Below, piece after piece: positions 8,782 through 16,779 of a DNA stretch of 64,000 nt. A program made the translations under genes and the position numbers. This stretch comes from Rhodopirellula baltica SH 1 (GTDB lineage Bacteria > Planctomycetota > Planctomycetia > Pirellulales > Pirellulaceae). Under the pieces are notes generated by a model that was given only the letters and a program-made list of their open reading frames with translations, ran no database searches and was not told where the DNA came from. The first letter of the stretch is position 1. Each line of letters begins with the position of its first letter. The DNA lies in NCBI RefSeq assembly GCF_000196115.1, contig NC_005027.1, positions 1,364,001 to 1,428,000 of the forward strand, in the 5' to 3' direction.

Positions 8782-9147
8782 TCACGCTTCGTCGGGGTAG
8801 GTCACGATGATGTTGCTGTTCAGGCCGCCGCGTGGCGTCCATTTGCTCTCCACGGTGACTTTGCGAGGCTGGACGACGGCGACAAAGTCGTCCAGAATTC
8901 GGTTGGTGACTTGCTCGTAGAAAATTCCTTCGTTGCGAAATTTCTGCAAGTACATTTTCAAGCTCTTCAGCTCCACGCAAACACGGTCTGGGACGTACGT
9001 GAAAACGATCGTTCCATAGTCGGGTTGTCCCGTTTTCGGGCAAACCGACGTGAATTCCGGGCAATGATGCTCGATCGTGAAATTTCGTGTCGGGGCGGGG
9101 TTTTCAAAAACTTCGAGAGTGTCTCGAAAAGAGGCTGTGTCGCTCAC
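8782..9147 (-). CDS. queF: NADPH-dependent 7-cyano-7-deazaguanine reductase
   Basis: Reduces preQ0 to preQ1 in queuosine tRNA modification. At 121 residues this is the short, unimodular form. [13 protein letters not shown] carries the Cys36 that forms the thioimide and the conserved Asp43. The QueF signature follows as [19 protein letters not shown] and FYEQVTNRI. It is divergent from queE, another gene of the same pathway, with the two starts within about 35 bases if the TTG start of queE is right. The isomerase-like gene follows closely and may share its transcript. Confidence 0.96.
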
Positions 9148-9181
9148 GTGGTTTGGTTCACTTCTAGAAACGCGGTGTCGT

Positions 9182-9955
9182 TTGAAATCGGTCGATCATC
9201 CAGTCGATGTTTTACCCGCTGAGCACTCGGCGGAAACCCCCGGGGACGCACGCGCCTCGGAATCGTCGCTGCTGATTTCAGAAACCTTCGTCAGTCGTCA
9301 AGGCGAAGGCGAATTGACCGGCACCGAAAGCGTCTTCATCCGGACCAGTGGCTGCAATCTGCGGTGCTGGTTTTGCGACACGCCTTACGCGTCTTGGAAG
9401 CCCGAAGGAACGCGGCAAACGATCGAGGACTTGTTGCAATTGGTCGCGAAGTCAGGCGTGAAGCACGTGGTGCTGACCGGTGGAGAACCTTTGATTGCCA
9501 AGGGGATCGTCAGCTTGATCGATCAGTTGCGATCGGCGGGGAATCACGTGACGATTGAAACCGCTGGAACCGTCGACCCTGGTGCGAGATGCGATTTGCT
9601 GTCGCTCAGCCCCAAGCTGCGGGCAAGCACTCCAGACGCGAAGGATCACCCGCGCCTGGCAAAAATGCACGCTGAAAGGCGGTTGCCGATCAACACGATG
9701 AAGCAATTGATTCAATCCGCAGAAGCGACCCAGGTCAAATTTGTGGTCGATTCGGCCGATGAATTGCCTGAGATCGATGAGGTCGTGCGGCAATTGGAGA
9801 TCGCAGCGGATGCCGTGTATTTGATGCCGCAAGGGATCTCGGTCGAACAGCTGGACGCCGCACGGCCATGGTTGGAACCGATGGCGATCTCGCGAGGCTA
9901 TCAATATTGCGACCGCATGCAAATTCGTTGGTTCGGCAACCGCCGAGGAACCTGA
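9182..9955 (+). CDS. queE: 7-carboxy-7-deazaguanine synthase (radical SAM)
   Basis: Radical SAM enzyme that turns 6-carboxytetrahydropterin into 7-carboxy-7-deazaguanine, upstream of QueF in queuosine synthesis. The cluster motif is the QueE form CNLRCWFC (CX3CX2C), followed by [24 protein letters not shown] at the N-terminus binds substrate in the family, and [10 protein letters not shown] is the radical SAM GGE motif. The start is uncertain. A GTG at 9077 gives 292 residues but would overlap the start of divergent queF by about 70 bases; the TTG at 9182 gives 257 residues and avoids this. Neither has a good ribosome binding site. Confidence 0.93.
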
Positions 9956-11140: not shown

Positions 11141-13492
11141 TTATCTGAAACGAAATGAACTTGAAAGGAGTTCGTAGATTCTTTGCCAAACCGAAGCCGA
11201 TTCGACCGCGATTTTCACTCGCCCAGAGGCACCCGCGACGCATGTCGCGGGTGCTGTGACGGAATTGTCGATTGCAATTTCAATGACATAGCTGGTTCCC
11301 GGCGTCCGTGTCGCTTGATCAGCTCGGTGATGGTCTCGTCGGGGAGCGTCGATTCGTGGGTCGAAGGTTTCTTCGGAAATCTGAACAACCCGGCCGCGAA
11401 AAACTTGATTGGGCGAGGAGTCGCGAATCATCAAGGCTTCGTCGCCAAGCGAAATTCGTTGCCGCTGAACAGAGCGAACCACTACCTCGCCTCGCCATCG
11501 GATGCAGGGGGGCGTTTGTTGGTCAGCAAATGGCGGTTCTCCGAGTTGCGGTGATCGAACTGGGCGGGCAAATTCTGTGTCCAGTGAAGCGATACTCAGC
11601 AATTCAGTCCCCGCTTCGAGCAGGCATCCACCGTTTTCTTTGGATGTGGGAAAACCGGACCAAGATGCTAGCCGAACCGCGGTGCGATCCATCGCCGGAT
11701 TCAAGCCCGGCCCGATATCCAGTGGATTCGCATCGGCATCCAGCAAAGCGTCTGAAGCGGATTGCGGATTGCTTTGAGCGATTATCACGACGCCATCACA
11801 CGGAGCGGTGATCGTTAGCGAGTCACGTCGCCGAATTGCTGCTGCCAATCGGTCTCGCATTTCGTCCAGCAACGCTTCCGCGGCGGGCAGCTGCGAACTG
11901 GCTTCTGGGACCAGCGTCTGCGACGCACGCAATCCTTCGAGTCTCATCGTTTGTTGACGGACGTCACCTTCGGCTTCGAGAACCTCCAACTCGATTTCTG
12001 GATTGGACAGTTCTGCCAAGACATCGCCGCGGCGGACCGTTTGCCCCGGATCAACATGGATTTGGCTCAGAATGCCGGGTGAAGTCAGGTGCACACGGGT
12101 TTCTTGCTCCGGCAAGATGCGAACGGTGCTGTAGACATGACGCGGCAACGGAACCGTTCCGGCAAAGACAACCATGGCGAGCAGGGTGCACCATGCGATG
12201 GCTCGTCGGGGGCGAATGTTTCGGCGGTTCATAGGATTGTTCCAAAACCGACGCAGCCACACCAACCCAGCCCACAGCATGGAGGCCGCTGCGACGAGGG
12301 CGATTGCTTGGCCAATGATTTCTAACCCGTAGGGTCTCAGCGAGATCCAGATAAAACCGATGATGGTCGCCATCAAGACCCATCGATACGCAAGCGAAGT
12401 GACCGCATAGGCAAGCAACCACGTCGAACGTTCCGCGGGTTCGTGGGGAGCTCCCGTTTCCACACCCAAGAAAACTCGCGATAAAAACTGCCCCCATCGC
12501 CGTTGGGCTCGTTGAGCCAAGTTGGGCATGTCGGTCAAATCCGACAACAGATAGTACCCGTCGTATCGCAACAGCGGATTGGCGTTGAAAACGATTGTGC
12601 TGACTCCGCAAACGATCATCACGTGGGAAGCAATCGTGTGGGTCAGGCCCGCCGGCGTTCGAAGCCAAACCCACGCCGCGATGGATGCGATGAGAACTTC
12701 CGTGGCAATGCCCGCCAAAGCAACCGCCGCTCGTTGCACACGACTGGGAATCATCCACGATCCGCTGGTGTCGCAGTACAACGCGGGTGTGAAAACGAGC
12801 AGCATTGGACCGATCGACCGACACTTGGCACCAAATCGCTCTGACACCACAGCGTGCCCCAATTCGTGCGCGACTTTTGTGATAGCAACCACGACGGCCA
12901 AGATCATTGCGTTCTGCAGTGTCAACCACTCGTGTGATGCGGGCAATTCCGCAAGATAACGCTGGCGGTGAACCAGCATCATCACGGCTGCGGAAAGGAC
13001 CAACGCCAAATAAGCGAGCATGCCGAATGGAGCAAGCAACGGACGAACGATCGGCATCAGGATCCGCATGATCGGTGCTGGATCAACTCCAGGAAACCGC
13101 ATGAACAACCATTGTGATGCCATCGCCAAACGTTTTTGCCGGCGGTCCGCGTCCGCTCGCTGGAGCAAAGGTTCACCTTGCAAGGCCGACTGACTAACCG
13201 TCAATCCGCTTTCGTGAAAACGGAACAGCAACGCGTTGATTTGGTTGGGGCGAACGCGACGATTGGGATAGCGAGCCTGATACTCATCTCGCAAATCATC
13301 CAGGCTGCATTGCCCATCAAGTAACGTCAGCAGAAAGTATTCGTCTTCGCGAAGACGGTGATACTGTCCCGAGATCGCATCATGGACGACCGCCCAACCC
13401 GCATGACGATGAGAAACTCGAACCGCTTTCAGGCCGACTTTGTGGTGAATTCCGAGCGGCCGACGCGTTGAAGAATCAGTGCCGGTGTTCAT
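11141..13492 (-). CDS. M50 (site-2-type) metalloprotease fused to a HlyD-like adaptor domain
   Basis: Membrane protein of 783 residues. About 20-105 form a PqqD-like winged-helix domain (VHDAISGQYHRLREDEYFLL). Then come transmembrane segments around the zinc-binding motif HELGH (209-213) and the distal NANPLLRYDG (303-312), as in the peptide zinc metalloprotease group of family M50. After more membrane helices (about 365-460) the C-terminal 320 residues form a lipoyl/HlyD-like domain (GILSQIHVDPGQTVRRGDVLAEL). The ATG at 13492 overlaps the stop of the upstream adaptor gene as ATGA, so translation is coupled; a longer frame from 13528 is less likely. Its role is inferred to be export or processing of a peptide or other substrate across the inner membrane. 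Confidence 0.88.
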   Translation of the reverse strand: MNTGTDSSTRRPLGIHHKVGLKAVRVSHRHAGWAVVHDAISGQYHRLREDEYFLLTLLDGQCSLDDLRDEYQARYPNRRVRPNQINALLFRFHESGLTVSQSALQGEPLLQRADADRRQKRLAMASQWLFMRFPGVDPAPIMRILMPIVRPLLAPFGMLAYLALVLSAAVMMLVHRQRYLAELPASHEWLTLQNAMILAVVVAITKVAHELGHAVVSERFGAKCRSIGPMLLVFTPALYCDTSGSWMIPSRVQRAAVALAGIATEVLIASIAAWVWLRTPAGLTHTIASHVMIVCGVSTIVFNANPLLRYDGYYLLSDLTDMPNLAQRAQRRWGQFLSRVFLGVETGAPHEPAERSTWLLAYAVTSLAYRWVLMATIIGFIWISLRPYGLEIIGQAIALVAAASMLWAGLVWLRRFWNNPMNRRNIRPRRAIAWCTLLAMVVFAGTVPLPRHVYSTVRILPEQETRVHLTSPGILSQIHVDPGQTVRRGDVLAELSNPEIELEVLEAEGDVRQQTMRLEGLRASQTLVPEASSQLPAAEALLDEMRDRLAAAIRRRDSLTITAPCDGVVIIAQSNPQSASDALLDADANPLDIGPGLNPAMDRTAVRLASWSGFPTSKENGGCLLEAGTELLSIASLDTEFARPVRSPQLGEPPFADQQTPPCIRWRGEVVVRSVQRQRISLGDEALMIRDSSPNQVFRGRVVQISEETFDPRIDAPRRDHHRADQATRTPGTSYVIEIAIDNSVTAPATCVAGASGRVKIAVESASVWQRIYELLSSSFRFR

Positions 13493-15618
13493 GTTCGAAA
13501 CCGAAACAAAACGTTGCGGTGGAACCAAGCGACCACGTCATCCAGTGCACTGGAAAGATAGCGACGACGGCCACAAACGATCTTTGCGGTAACCTCGGCA
13601 TCCCCACGGAAGCCGCCATCCGGAATGGTGTCGATGTCGGCGACTAAGTCCACCATGTTGCGGCCATCGGCACGTTTGCGAGCGACGCCTCCGATCGCGG
13701 ACAGATTCGCATGGAACGTCTCGGTCGGTCGCGTTTCGATGGCGAATTGAACGGGAAGATTCAATCCCGCCGCGTGACGTTCGATGACTTCGCCAGCGCG
13801 AGTTTCCTCCAGCTTCAGCTCCAACTCCCACGGTCCGTCGCGCTGAACGATCGCGAATAATCGGTCGCCGCGAGACACCGGCCGATCTTTCAGCCGTTCG
13901 TTCAATCGCCAACCGACTATCTGGCCATCAAAGGGGGCTTTCACGGAAAGCATGTCCTTCATCTCACGATTGATTTGCAATCGTTTGTTGAGTGAATCGA
14001 TTTGGTTCTCGAGCGTTTGTTGTTCAAGGATGCTCTGTGCCGAATCGCGAGAATCGTCGGATGCGGCCAGCAACATCGCTCGCACAGAACTCAACTTTTC
14101 AGTGGCGGTCGCGAGCTGTCCCGACAACGCCTGGGCTTCGCGGGTGAGTTCCGGATTCTCGAGCTGGACCAAAACGTCACCCTGGCGAACGACGTCGCCA
14201 TCTTTCACCTTCAATTCGTTAACGACGCCGTCGATCCCAGCAAACATAGCTTGCCGAACCGCGGGACGAGCCAGCCCGGTCGCAACAACATGATGATCGA
14301 CTTGAATGAACCAACCGGCCAACAAGCCGACTGCCAACAACATGCAACCAGCCAGGATCCAGTGGCGGGTGACTCGGCGAGTTGCGGCCGCTGCCGGGCG
14401 TCGAACCGGCAACGCGAACACACTGTCATAGCGAATCGCATTGCTGATGGCGGAGGACGACTCTTCGGCGACTTCCACCATTGCCGGGGTGATTGATGTC
14501 GATGGTTCGCCCGAGAATGTTTCCAGCATCAGCATCGCAATCGGCATCGGCTGGCGACGCTGTTTTTCGCGAGTCTCCTGATCCGATTCGTTGCACGTGT
14601 TTTCACCCGCAGCAACTCTCGTGTCGTCGACCGATTCGAACAGCGGAATCATCAACACCGACAACACCCCGGATTCGTCCAAGTAGGTTTCAAGCGGTGG
14701 AACCAGTTGCGGTGACATCGATGCGGGATCAATCGTGTCCGCGTCGGCCGACGGTGGCAAGGTCAATGGTCGCTTCAAAACCGAAACAGCGTCGGCCAAT
14801 TGATTCATCGAGCGAACCAGTGGCGAGCGCAGGTCGATCACCGATGAACCGCTGATCGCGGCAACTTGGTATCGAGGCCGTCGTGCCGACGGATTCTTGG
14901 CGAGTAACACGACGGATCGTTCGCAGGGCAATAACCGAGGAAGTTCTGACGCGATGCGGTACGCGGTTGCCGTGGGACTTAAGTCAGAATGGAATGCTCG
15001 CAGCGCCGATCGAATTCCGCGAGAAGAATCCAACGAGTTCGAGATTGATTTCGAACCCGCATCGGGGACTGACAACGTTTGGGAACCCAATTGCGGAGTT
15101 TGTGATTCCGCATCCGCTTCGCCCATCGTTTGACGCGCGGCGGTAGAAATTTCTGCTAGCGACCTCATCTCGGAAAGCATCTGCCCGGCGGGCAATTGCG
15201 AGCCATGAATGATCAAGAGATTCGCAAACTGCGGTGCCGGCAAGATCTCGACACCCAACGCAGTGACACTGGCCGCGGTGGACTGGTGCGATGGTTCGTT
15301 TTTATCTCGGGCGATTTCGAATGATGCGACCGATGGCGTGAGCGCGCCTAACTGTTCTCTCAGTTTCTCACGGTCCAAGCTCGCAGCAATCGATTCACTG
15401 CGAATGAGCATGCGGGGTTGCGGGAACGACGAGTCTTGAACTGCCACCACCGCCGCATCGAATGTTTCGGCCAAGTGCGTCGCCAAGCGATGAAGAAAGT
15501 CGGCTTGGTCACGTGACTCATTCGCGATTCGCTCGACCGTCTGGTGCGTCGACATCGTCTCCGCATCGGATTCACCCGACGGGACGGAAGCGGTTGTGGA
15601 AGCATCTAAACGGTTCAT
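13489..15618 (-). CDS. GAF-domain protein fused to a HlyD-family periplasmic adaptor
   Basis: 709 residues. Two N-terminal regions look like GAF sensor domains (about 30-165, and 200-400 with YLDESGVLSVLMIPLFES and AISNAIRYDSV). A single transmembrane helix (419-438) follows, and then a periplasmic HlyD adaptor: a lipoyl half-motif (GIDGVVNELKVKDGDVVRQGD, 461-481, shown only in part by its core VKDGDVVRQGD), a coiled-coil hairpin, and the second half (APFDGQIVGWRLNERL). HlyD proteins link inner-membrane exporters to outer-membrane channels. The GAF part would sit in the cytosol, so the protein could couple ligand sensing to export. It is translationally coupled to the M50-HlyD gene. No TolC-like gene is in the window. 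Confidence 0.85.
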   Translation of the reverse strand: MNRLDASTTASVPSGESDAETMSTHQTVERIANESRDQADFLHRLATHLAETFDAAVVAVQDSSFPQPRMLIRSESIAASLDREKLREQLGALTPSVASFEIARDKNEPSHQSTAASVTALGVEILPAPQFANLLIIHGSQLPAGQMLSEMRSLAEISTAARQTMGEADAESQTPQLGSQTLSVPDAGSKSISNSLDSSRGIRSALRAFHSDLSPTATAYRIASELPRLLPCERSVVLLAKNPSARRPRYQVAAISGSSVIDLRSPLVRSMNQLADAVSVLKRPLTLPPSADADTIDPASMSPQLVPPLETYLDESGVLSVLMIPLFESVDDTRVAAGENTCNESDQETREKQRRQPMPIAMLMLETFSGEPSTSITPAMVEVAEESSSAISNAIRYDSVFALPVRRPAAAATRRVTRHWILAGCMLLAVGLLAGWFIQVDHHVVATGLARPAVRQAMFAGIDGVVNELKVKDGDVVRQGDVLVQLENPELTREAQALSGQLATATEKLSSVRAMLLAASDDSRDSAQSILEQQTLENQIDSLNKRLQINREMKDMLSVKAPFDGQIVGWRLNERLKDRPVSRGDRLFAIVQRDGPWELELKLEETRAGEVIERHAAGLNLPVQFAIETRPTETFHANLSAIGGVARKRADGRNMVDLVADIDTIPDGGFRGDAEVTAKIVCGRRRYLSSALDDVVAWFHRNVLFRFRT

Positions 15619-15699: not shown

Positions 15700-16779
15700 T
15701 CACTCCAGTTGAGCGAATCGGCCGTCGGATCCGCACGCGAAGAGCTTTGTTTTTCCCGCTGACAAACAGTGAAAGCCAATGTCTGACAAGGATGTCCAGT
15801 TCGTTCCATCATGAGACAAATCGGTTCCGGCTGGACCGACGGCGATCAATGCTCTGGCGAGCGGGCTGGCTTCGGGGATCGCCATGACGTCACTGCGGAA
15901 GGATTCTGGTTGACCCGCGACACGTTGCCAAGTTGCTCCGTCATCCAGGCTAATGCAGGCCGTGACCTTCGACGTTTCGGAAGCTCGGTAATCTCCGCCT
16001 ACGCAGATCAGAGGTTTCGTGGCGTCAACTTCGGCGATGGCCGGCCCCTGGCAAATTGCGAAAATGCCTGCGGCTTGCGAGCTTGGCATGGGGACAGGAA
16101 TAGCATCCCACGGCTGATCCCAACCCAACCGTTTGTACAGCCGACTAGTTTCGGATTCTGCACCTCCGGTGCCGAACCACAACTGGCCGTCCGGACCAAG
16201 CAACAACGATGAGTTGCTGGCCGCGAAGGCTGCTTCACCAGGGCGAGCAAGCGGGATCCCGTTGGTTACCTTTCGCCATGATTTGCCACCGTCGTTGGTT
16301 TCCACCACAAGCAACCGACCATCGACCGGATCGCTCACCGCCATGCCGCGATCCGCATCCCAAAATTGCATCGCATCAAAGAACGCCGATTCTGATTCGG
16401 CGCGATAGGTTTCCTTCCAAGTCGCTCCACCATCTTCGGTTCGTAACAACACGGCCGGCGTTCCCGCACTGGCAATGCATGCGACGTTTGCACTGAAGGC
16501 GCAGACGCAGCGAAATTCAAGACCATCAAAACCGGCGGGGCCGCAAGGTTGCCAAGTCTCTCCACCATCGATCGAGCGAATCACGGTGGCCTCCGCTCCA
16601 CTGGCCCAGATCACATCGTCATCCACCGCAGAGAGCCCCCGCAAGCTGACGTTCGTTCCGGTTTCGCTCACGTTCCAATTGGAAGACACGACATCCGCAG
16701 CGACCAAGAGGCGAGGGGGCAAAATCGCCATCGCGAGAAGGATGAAGCAGCGAACGGCGACGCATTGCTTTGAAAACAT
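15700..16779 (-). CDS. Secreted BNR/Asp-box beta-propeller protein
   Basis: 359 residues with an N-terminal signal peptide (hydrophobic CFILLAMAILPPRLLVAA). Several Asp-box motifs (S/T-x-D-x-G-x-T-W) are visible: SIDGGETW, TEDGGATW, TNDGGKSW and SLDDGATW, at about 45-80-residue spacing, as in sialidase-like and Ycf48-like propellers. No catalytic residues of sialidases are evident, so a binding or assembly role is more likely than hydrolysis. It precedes the GAF-HlyD gene by 81 bases on the same strand. That gap holds a C-run/G-run hairpin (15637-15659), so cotranscription is possible but not certain. Confidence 0.85.
   Translation of the reverse strand: MFSKQCVAVRCFILLAMAILPPRLLVAADVVSSNWNVSETGTNVSLRGLSAVDDDVIWASGAEATVIRSIDGGETWQPCGPAGFDGLEFRCVCAFSANVACIASAGTPAVLLRTEDGGATWKETYRAESESAFFDAMQFWDADRGMAVSDPVDGRLLVVETNDGGKSWRKVTNGIPLARPGEAAFAASNSSLLLGPDGQLWFGTGGAESETSRLYKRLGWDQPWDAIPVPMPSSQAAGIFAICQGPAIAEVDATKPLICVGGDYRASETSKVTACISLDDGATWQRVAGQPESFRSDVMAIPEASPLARALIAVGPAGTDLSHDGTNWTSLSDIGFHCLSAGKTKLFACGSDGRFAQLE

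Follow-up and report, generated by a model that had tools for sequence, protein, structure and literature searches.

A GAF-HlyD adaptor and a site-2 protease-HlyD fusion of Rhodopirellula baltica as a probable gate for LEPR-tagged surface proteins

RESULTS

The window, a stretch of 64,000 nucleotides from the single-contig, 7,145,576-bp genome of Rhodopirellula baltica SH 1, carries on its minus strand two overlapping genes (positions are those of the window unless stated otherwise). The first gene (13489..15618) encodes a 709-residue protein recognized by its open reading frame (ORF), a Pfam HlyD match, and an AF2 model with fold matches. Its first GAF-like domain (residues 24 to 172; 15103..15549), delimited by AF2 secondary structure, and its second (residues 189 to 400; 14419..15054) fall within an alignment to the tandem GAF region of PDE5A that spans residues 18 to 400. 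A single membrane helix (residues ~416 to 438; 14305..14373), seen as a hydropathy peak and as a helix in the AF2 model, leads into a HlyD/MacA-type periplasmic adaptor region (residues 439 to 696; 13531..14304). The second gene (11141..13492), supported by its ORF and translation, Pfam, and AF2, encodes a 783-residue fusion that begins with a predicted RRE/PqqD-like leader-binding domain (residues 13 to 100; 13193..13456). An RseP-like intramembrane protease domain follows (residues 187 to 382; 12347..12934), with the zinc motif HELGH (residues 209 to 213; 12854..12868) and a second site-2 protease motif in invariant alignment columns, NANPLLRYDGY (residues 303 to 313; 12554..12586). The protein ends in its own HlyD/MacA-type adaptor region (residues 448 to 775; 11168..12151). 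Stop and start codons of the two genes share the four bases ATGA (13489..13492), and translational coupling through this overlap is likely.

ORF, Pfam, and AF2 analyses thus reproduced what the initial annotation had described of the pair, namely, the HlyD regions, the membrane helix, the PqqD-like domain, the HELGH motif, and the ATGA overlap. The GAF folds that it had proposed were borne out by the predicted structure; no Pfam GAF model matched the 709-residue protein at an E value of ≤0.1, and the assignment rests on the predicted fold because Pfam alone gave no match. By AF2 fold matching, the N-terminal domain of the 783-residue protein has an RRE fold, which fold comparison places among folds known from leader-peptide complexes, and the protease part combines HExxH, a DG motif, and an RseP fold. 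The RRE, GAF, and protease folds were read from AF2 models of longer chains rather than of isolated domains, and the absence of a fold from a structure-match list was not taken as evidence against it. When the family M50 proteins were compared row by row in the alignment, HExxH was present in all 53 and DGY in 52; the Thalassospira M50 protein lacks a DG[YFW] motif.

As initially stated, no ABC or RND transporter lies beside the pair: Pfam found neither domain in the ten neighboring ORFs (three of which had no match at all), nor was an OEP/TolC protein found among them. A third HlyD protein is likewise absent in cis. No tagged gene (see below), SecA gene, or TolC gene is near; the closest tag match is 102 kb away, and the closest non-housekeeping SecA gene is 312 kb away. 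A Ycf48/BNR propeller protein is encoded upstream on the minus strand (15700-16779), but it keeps this place in close relatives only and adjoins the pair in just 4 of 13 window-type loci, and we rejected it as a partner. On the other side lies a radical-SAM protein (9077-9955) that, with QueF as its neighbor, also scores as a queuosine-type gene; we read it as QueE.

A search with the window M50 protein revealed five further M50-HlyD proteins in the R. baltica genome, each accompanied by one to four partner genes (HlyD-type proteins, OEP, or SecA). All five loci encode a HlyD protein whose N-terminal part is long, and Pfam recognizes a GAF domain there only in the paralogue at locus L009; four include a stand-alone HlyD gene, three an OEP/TolC gene, and one a 683-residue SecA-like ATPase. 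Genome-wide, we counted two non-housekeeping SecA genes and 13 OEP frames, of which three adjoin other M50 operons. The SecA encoded at ~1.06 Mb is 61 to 65% identical to five SecA proteins of own09-type operons and 49% identical to a sixth. The own10 M50 gene is immediately followed, on the opposite strand, by the gene for a 1,922-residue Ser/Thr-kinase-type protein (L010:11812-17580). Separately, one 1,013-residue database protein (P0140) unites SecA and OEP (TolC) domains, being either a fusion or a gene-calling artifact.

That the two genes are conserved together, as the initial annotation required, was apparent at two scales. They are adjacent in 12 of the 13 window-type loci, and in the wider planctomycete family, counted over the 57 loci with more than 4.3 kb of upstream sequence in the genome scan, a GAF-HlyD gene lies upstream of the M50 gene in 51 by tblastn and in 47 by ORF picking. 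By ORF picking, a stand-alone HlyD gene precedes the M50 gene in 41 of the 57; the tblastn count of 51 is an upper bound, since that search may pick up the HlyD portion of GAF-HlyD proteins as well. Among the 46 planctomycete M50 loci with longer flanks, eight contain SecA and two contain OEP. The window pair itself is 59 to 83% identical across the five closest species, with both frames intact and the catalytic motifs present. The pair is split in genome G010 (L023), given that the GAF-HlyD match carries an internal TAG and the M50 gene sits on another contig.

A candidate substrate class emerged from the proteins encoded beside such loci. The available part of PMC8567305 cites Studholme 2004 for a putative export signal at the N terminus of R. 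baltica cell-surface proteins, the motif RRLxxExLExRxLLA, and adds a similar motif in 52 Tuwongella genes, with 20 of the products detected by proteomics; PMC10868602, in the portion available, describes a Vibrio protein of ~8,000 residues that starts with LEPR-XLL. This tag is modeled by PF07595 and NF012209 (cutoff, 17 bits). In R. baltica, tagged giants abut two of the six M50 loci. A 7,729-residue open frame with the tag LEDRVLLSGE (L149; minus strand of the genome contig, up to ~875758), scoring 27.2 bits with NF012209, lies divergently beside the L012 operon, and a 2,517-residue frame beside the L013 operon reaches 14.3 bits, below the 17-bit cutoff. The association was quantified in 12 one-contig genomes comprising 57 M50 loci, 109 tag matches (E ≤ 0.5), and 26 non-housekeeping SecA genes. 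Tag matches within 15 kb of an M50 gene numbered 15 of 109, against 2.1 expected, and the excess was larger for tagged frames of at least 2,000 residues (11 of 29 versus 0.7 expected). Half of the non-housekeeping SecA genes (13 of 26) lie at most 5.4 kb from an M50-HlyD gene, where 0.65 would be expected within 15 kb. Counted from the machine side, 14 of the 57 M50 loci have a tag match within 15 kb and 43 do not. At the 13 SecA-M50 loci, a tagged neighbor is present in eight (six by NF012209 and two more by pattern) and absent by both methods in five. Across frames of 300 residues or more from 80 loci (314,323 residues in total), the strict tag pattern occurs three times, always near an N terminus.

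Tag and machine also co-occur across 195 planctomycete genomes. M50-HlyD was found in 28 of 31 LEPR-positive genomes versus 29 of 164 LEPR-negative genomes (Fisher test, P = 6.9e-15, relatedness ignored) and, outside the class to which the window belongs, in 18 of 21 tag-positive versus 13 of 147 tag-negative genomes (P = 3e-13, relatedness again ignored). No tag match (E ≤ 0.05) was found in 29 of the 57 M50-positive genomes, and three tag-positive genomes had no M50 match; such M50 absences are soft because the profile search scored just five candidates per genome.

Related loci are also carried by proteobacterial plasmids. A tblastn search of plasmids with an R. baltica M50 query returned 81 records, and the surroundings of 14, whose M50 proteins share 22.6 to 29.9% identity with the query, were inspected. 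A large neighboring protein bears a LEPR-type tag in nine of the 14 and lacks it in two. Ten of the loci are annotated and include upstream sequence, in which the upstream neighbor measures 1,412 to 12,918 residues in nine cases and 492 in one; eight of these are tagged (Pontibrevibacter, Alisedimentitalea, Mesorhizobium, Methylosinus, Pseudosulfitobacter, Azospirillum, Thalassospira, and Kosakonia), and no tag was seen in the Phyllobacterium and Magnetospirillum neighbors. The Tistrella locus has a tagged 1,893-residue frame downstream. In the Ensifer and Cupriavidus loci a large frame extends beyond the retrieved stretch, and the Rhizobium johnstonii locus begins at the record edge. The Alisedimentitalea giant (8,148 residues; L130) had been a candidate tagless case, which we rejected on finding LEPRLLL in the in-frame stretch upstream of position 825 (minus strand), before the annotated start; that start is probably too late. 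The records themselves name three of the plasmid neighbors as LEPR-XLL domain proteins and one as a DUF4347 protein. Some plasmid operons contain a SecA-type gene and others do not; in the latter, SecA would have to work in trans, if it takes part. As further observations on these plasmids, in four operons from alphaproteobacteria (L124, L126, L127, and L136) a small DUF3467 gene separates the giant gene from those of the adaptors, SapC-family genes occur in operon L128 and beside operon L130, and the M50-HlyD query also matched plasmid records of Escherichia (18) and Citrobacter (8).

A specific client of the window pair was sought in its closest sister operon (L030, genome G040), whose M50 protein joins the window-type clade with a support of 100 in a tree built by a quick method with SH-aLRT support only. 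This operon encodes, along with HlyD, OEP, GAF-HlyD, and M50 proteins, a tagged protein of 1,395 residues that begins LEPRVMLAGDAG. Over 1,022 residues it is 55% identical to its R. baltica orthologue, a 1,277-residue protein (genome positions 1269214-1273044, 102 kb from the window pair), with which it shares DUF4347, CBM60, Calx-beta, legume lectin, and GSDH domains. The LEPR tag of the 1,277-residue protein scores 23.4 bits with NF012209 at residues 46 to 69 and 29.2 bits in the genome search, above the cutoff of 17. Among 40 genomes, 12 have a match to this protein of at least 1,361 bits, and they are the same 12 that have a window-type GAF-HlyD protein (E = 2.4e-107 or better); in the other 28, the best match to the 1,277-residue protein does not exceed 126.5 bits (one genome has none), and the best GAF-HlyD E value is 2.7e-58. 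In G010, where the pair is split, the 1,277-residue protein is matched in two pieces. Two congeners, G005 and G007, lack both the pair and the 1,277-residue protein; as the two are sisters, with pair-bearing species around them in the tree, they represent one joint loss rather than two, and the split of 12 and 28 genomes thus reflects few events, approximately a single gain and a single loss, each shared, so that the Fisher value of 1.8e-10 overstates independence. Beyond the 40 genomes, G066 has both the pair and the 1,277-residue protein. We therefore lean, by a modest degree, toward the window pair serving the 1,277-residue protein. A second R. baltica protein, of 714 residues (genome positions 2042479-2044620), bears the same tag subtype, is matched at full length in six of the 40 genomes, all of them pair positive, and is likely a further client. 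In ten tagged proteins the maximal 11-residue hydropathy within the first 90 residues was 0.75 to 1.84, compared with 2.05 to 2.69 in the same region of five proteins for which Sec signals are expected; without a strong hydrophobic core, a classical signal peptide is unlikely in the tagged proteins.

The tags fall into dialects that follow the type of operon. The adjoining tags of own12-type operons read DF-x(2-4)-LEDR[VI]LLSGE in all four inspected, those of the four own13-clade operons having a tag contain L[FLM]SA[TV]P, and FD-type tags occur at two sister operons. The window-type clade and its sister are associated with the pattern W-x(1-4)-[LM]E[PQES]R-x-[ML]LA[AG]D, which is seen in 19 of the 44 tags from the five genomes that have either clade (2 in G000, 2 in G002, 3 in G023, 2 in G040, and 10 in G066) and in none of 65 tags from the seven genomes that have neither, the pattern having been drawn after inspection of 8 of the 12 genomes; four genomes were added later, namely, G018, G076, and G077, with none of 46 tags matching, and the close relative G002, with two of five. 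The ten such proteins in G066 alone are a marked expansion of likely clients. The W...LEPR[LM]MLA[AG]D form is a distinct subtype reported here. Agreement between tag subtype and M50 clade would be expected if the M50 protein contained a tag reader, and for adjacent genes linked inheritance would produce it as well; the window pair and its predicted client, unlike the adjacent cases, are unlinked.

DISCUSSION

Taken as a family, the M50/GAF-HlyD loci quite likely export LEPR-tagged proteins. For the window pair itself, we consider it probable, with somewhat less assurance, that the two proteins form an inner-membrane, tag-reading gate for a large LEPR-tagged lectin-type protein and hand it to TolC; the motor would probably be a SecA-like ATPase. 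The RRE domain would bind the LEPR tag in the cytosol, the site-2 protease would clip or release the tag or act as a gate at the membrane, and a conduit would be formed by TolC together with the HlyD-type adaptors, while the GAF tandem could switch the gate in response to a cytosolic ligand. At the window locus, the components acting in trans may be the SecA encoded at ~1.06 Mb, one of the 13 TolC-type frames, and a stand-alone HlyD protein. We thus infer, as the initial annotation did, a role in export, but its suggestion that the protease-adaptor might be the entire export machine is not supported, given that the operons of relatives can add a third HlyD protein, TolC, and a SecA-like ATPase.

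The initial annotation had also envisaged a peptide as the substrate. A RiPP-like unit of this kind, in which the RRE domain binds a short precursor, the protease cuts it, and the two adaptors export it, would be in keeping with the match of the RRE fold to lasso-peptide B1 proteins and with the 179.8 bits that the M50 part scores with the daptide protease model NF041824; that score, however, is under the model cutoff of 300 bits, no RiPP enzyme was recognized in the ten neighboring ORFs apart from the radical-SAM protein mentioned above, and the tag-sharing neighbors in related operons are ~700 to 13,000 residues long, which argues against a small substrate and leaves this reading highly improbable. 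We also regard as very unlikely a signaling or quality-control unit in which a GAF-sensed ligand controls cleavage of membrane proteins and the HlyD parts serve only for docking. A GAF tandem joined to an RseP-like fold, with no exporter recognized in the ten ORFs beside it, would suit such a role, but both proteins carry HlyD adaptor regions and in relatives both can accompany TolC and SecA.

Another possibility accepts the tag link for the family but takes the window pair to be a drifting, clientless duplicate or a spare for the own09-type machine. It draws on the lack of HlyD, TolC, and a tagged neighbor at the window, unlike the sister operon, on the two congeners that live without the pair, and on the separation of the two genes in G010. 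Against it stand the two intact frames, which retain their catalytic motifs and 59 to 83% identity in the five closest species, and the absence of the tagged orthologue wherever the pair is lost; we hold this explanation to be unlikely. Returning to the tag-reading gate, the dialects raise the further possibility, which we put forward tentatively, that several SecA-driven machines operate in parallel in each planctomycete cell, each RRE-protease gate reading one LEPR dialect (DF..LEDRxLLSG, L[FL]SATP, FD[AG]V, W...LEPRLMLAGD, or the generic ExLExRxLLA) and the window pair reading W...LMLAGD. With one dialect per gate, the M50-HlyD proteins would be address readers that sort large adhesins and lectins to the surface with no need of a classical signal peptide.

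If the proposed link is correct, the export signal proposed for R. baltica in 2004 and the SecA/type-I-like locus described in 2015 are two halves of one pathway, and a route to the surface would be explained for proteins of up to ~13,000 residues in planctomycetes and on proteobacterial plasmids. The locus itself was already described: PMC4452313 (2015), in the part available, reports secondary SecA_DEAD genes with M50, GAF-HlyD, HlyD, and sometimes OEP genes in Planctomycetes, Verrucomicrobia, and Proteobacteria as a type-I-secretion-like arrangement, proposes SecA as the ATPase, M50 as the membrane part, and GAF as the regulator, and terms the broader role “completely unknown.” Its main text contains none of the terms “lepr,” “pqqd,” and “baltica,” and the part available names no substrate; likewise, the available part of PMC8567305 names no export machine for the LEPR-XLL tag. 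Our full-text search of the literature, excluding preprints, found no paper joining the LEPR tag to the SecA/M50 machine and none on M50 together with HlyD in type I or planctomycete secretion, and the papers matching DUF4347 looked unrelated, going by titles. What is new is the tie between the SecA/M50/GAF-HlyD/TolC family and N-terminal LEPR-XLL proteins.

Compared with the locus of PMC4452313, as far as its available text describes it, the window pair shares the M50-HlyD gene and the adjoining GAF-HlyD gene but has no SecA, OEP, or third HlyD gene in cis; it is a relative and not a complete member, since the secondary SecA_DEAD gene is not in the locus. The LEPR-XLL (NF012209) proteins, which include the 1,277-residue protein, stand to it as the proposed client family. 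With RseP-type site-2 proteases, the 783-residue protein has in common HExxH, DG motifs, and the RseP fold, and it differs from them by the fused RRE-like domain and HlyD adaptor. Its N-terminal fold is that of lasso-peptide B1 and other RRE proteins, here fused to a membrane protease-adaptor and with the start of a large protein as the proposed ligand. Finally, the pair resembles MacAB-TolC and ABC type I secretion systems in its MacA-like adaptor folds and in the TolC partner of its relatives, but it pairs these adaptors with an intramembrane protease and, in relatives, with a SecA-like ATPase.
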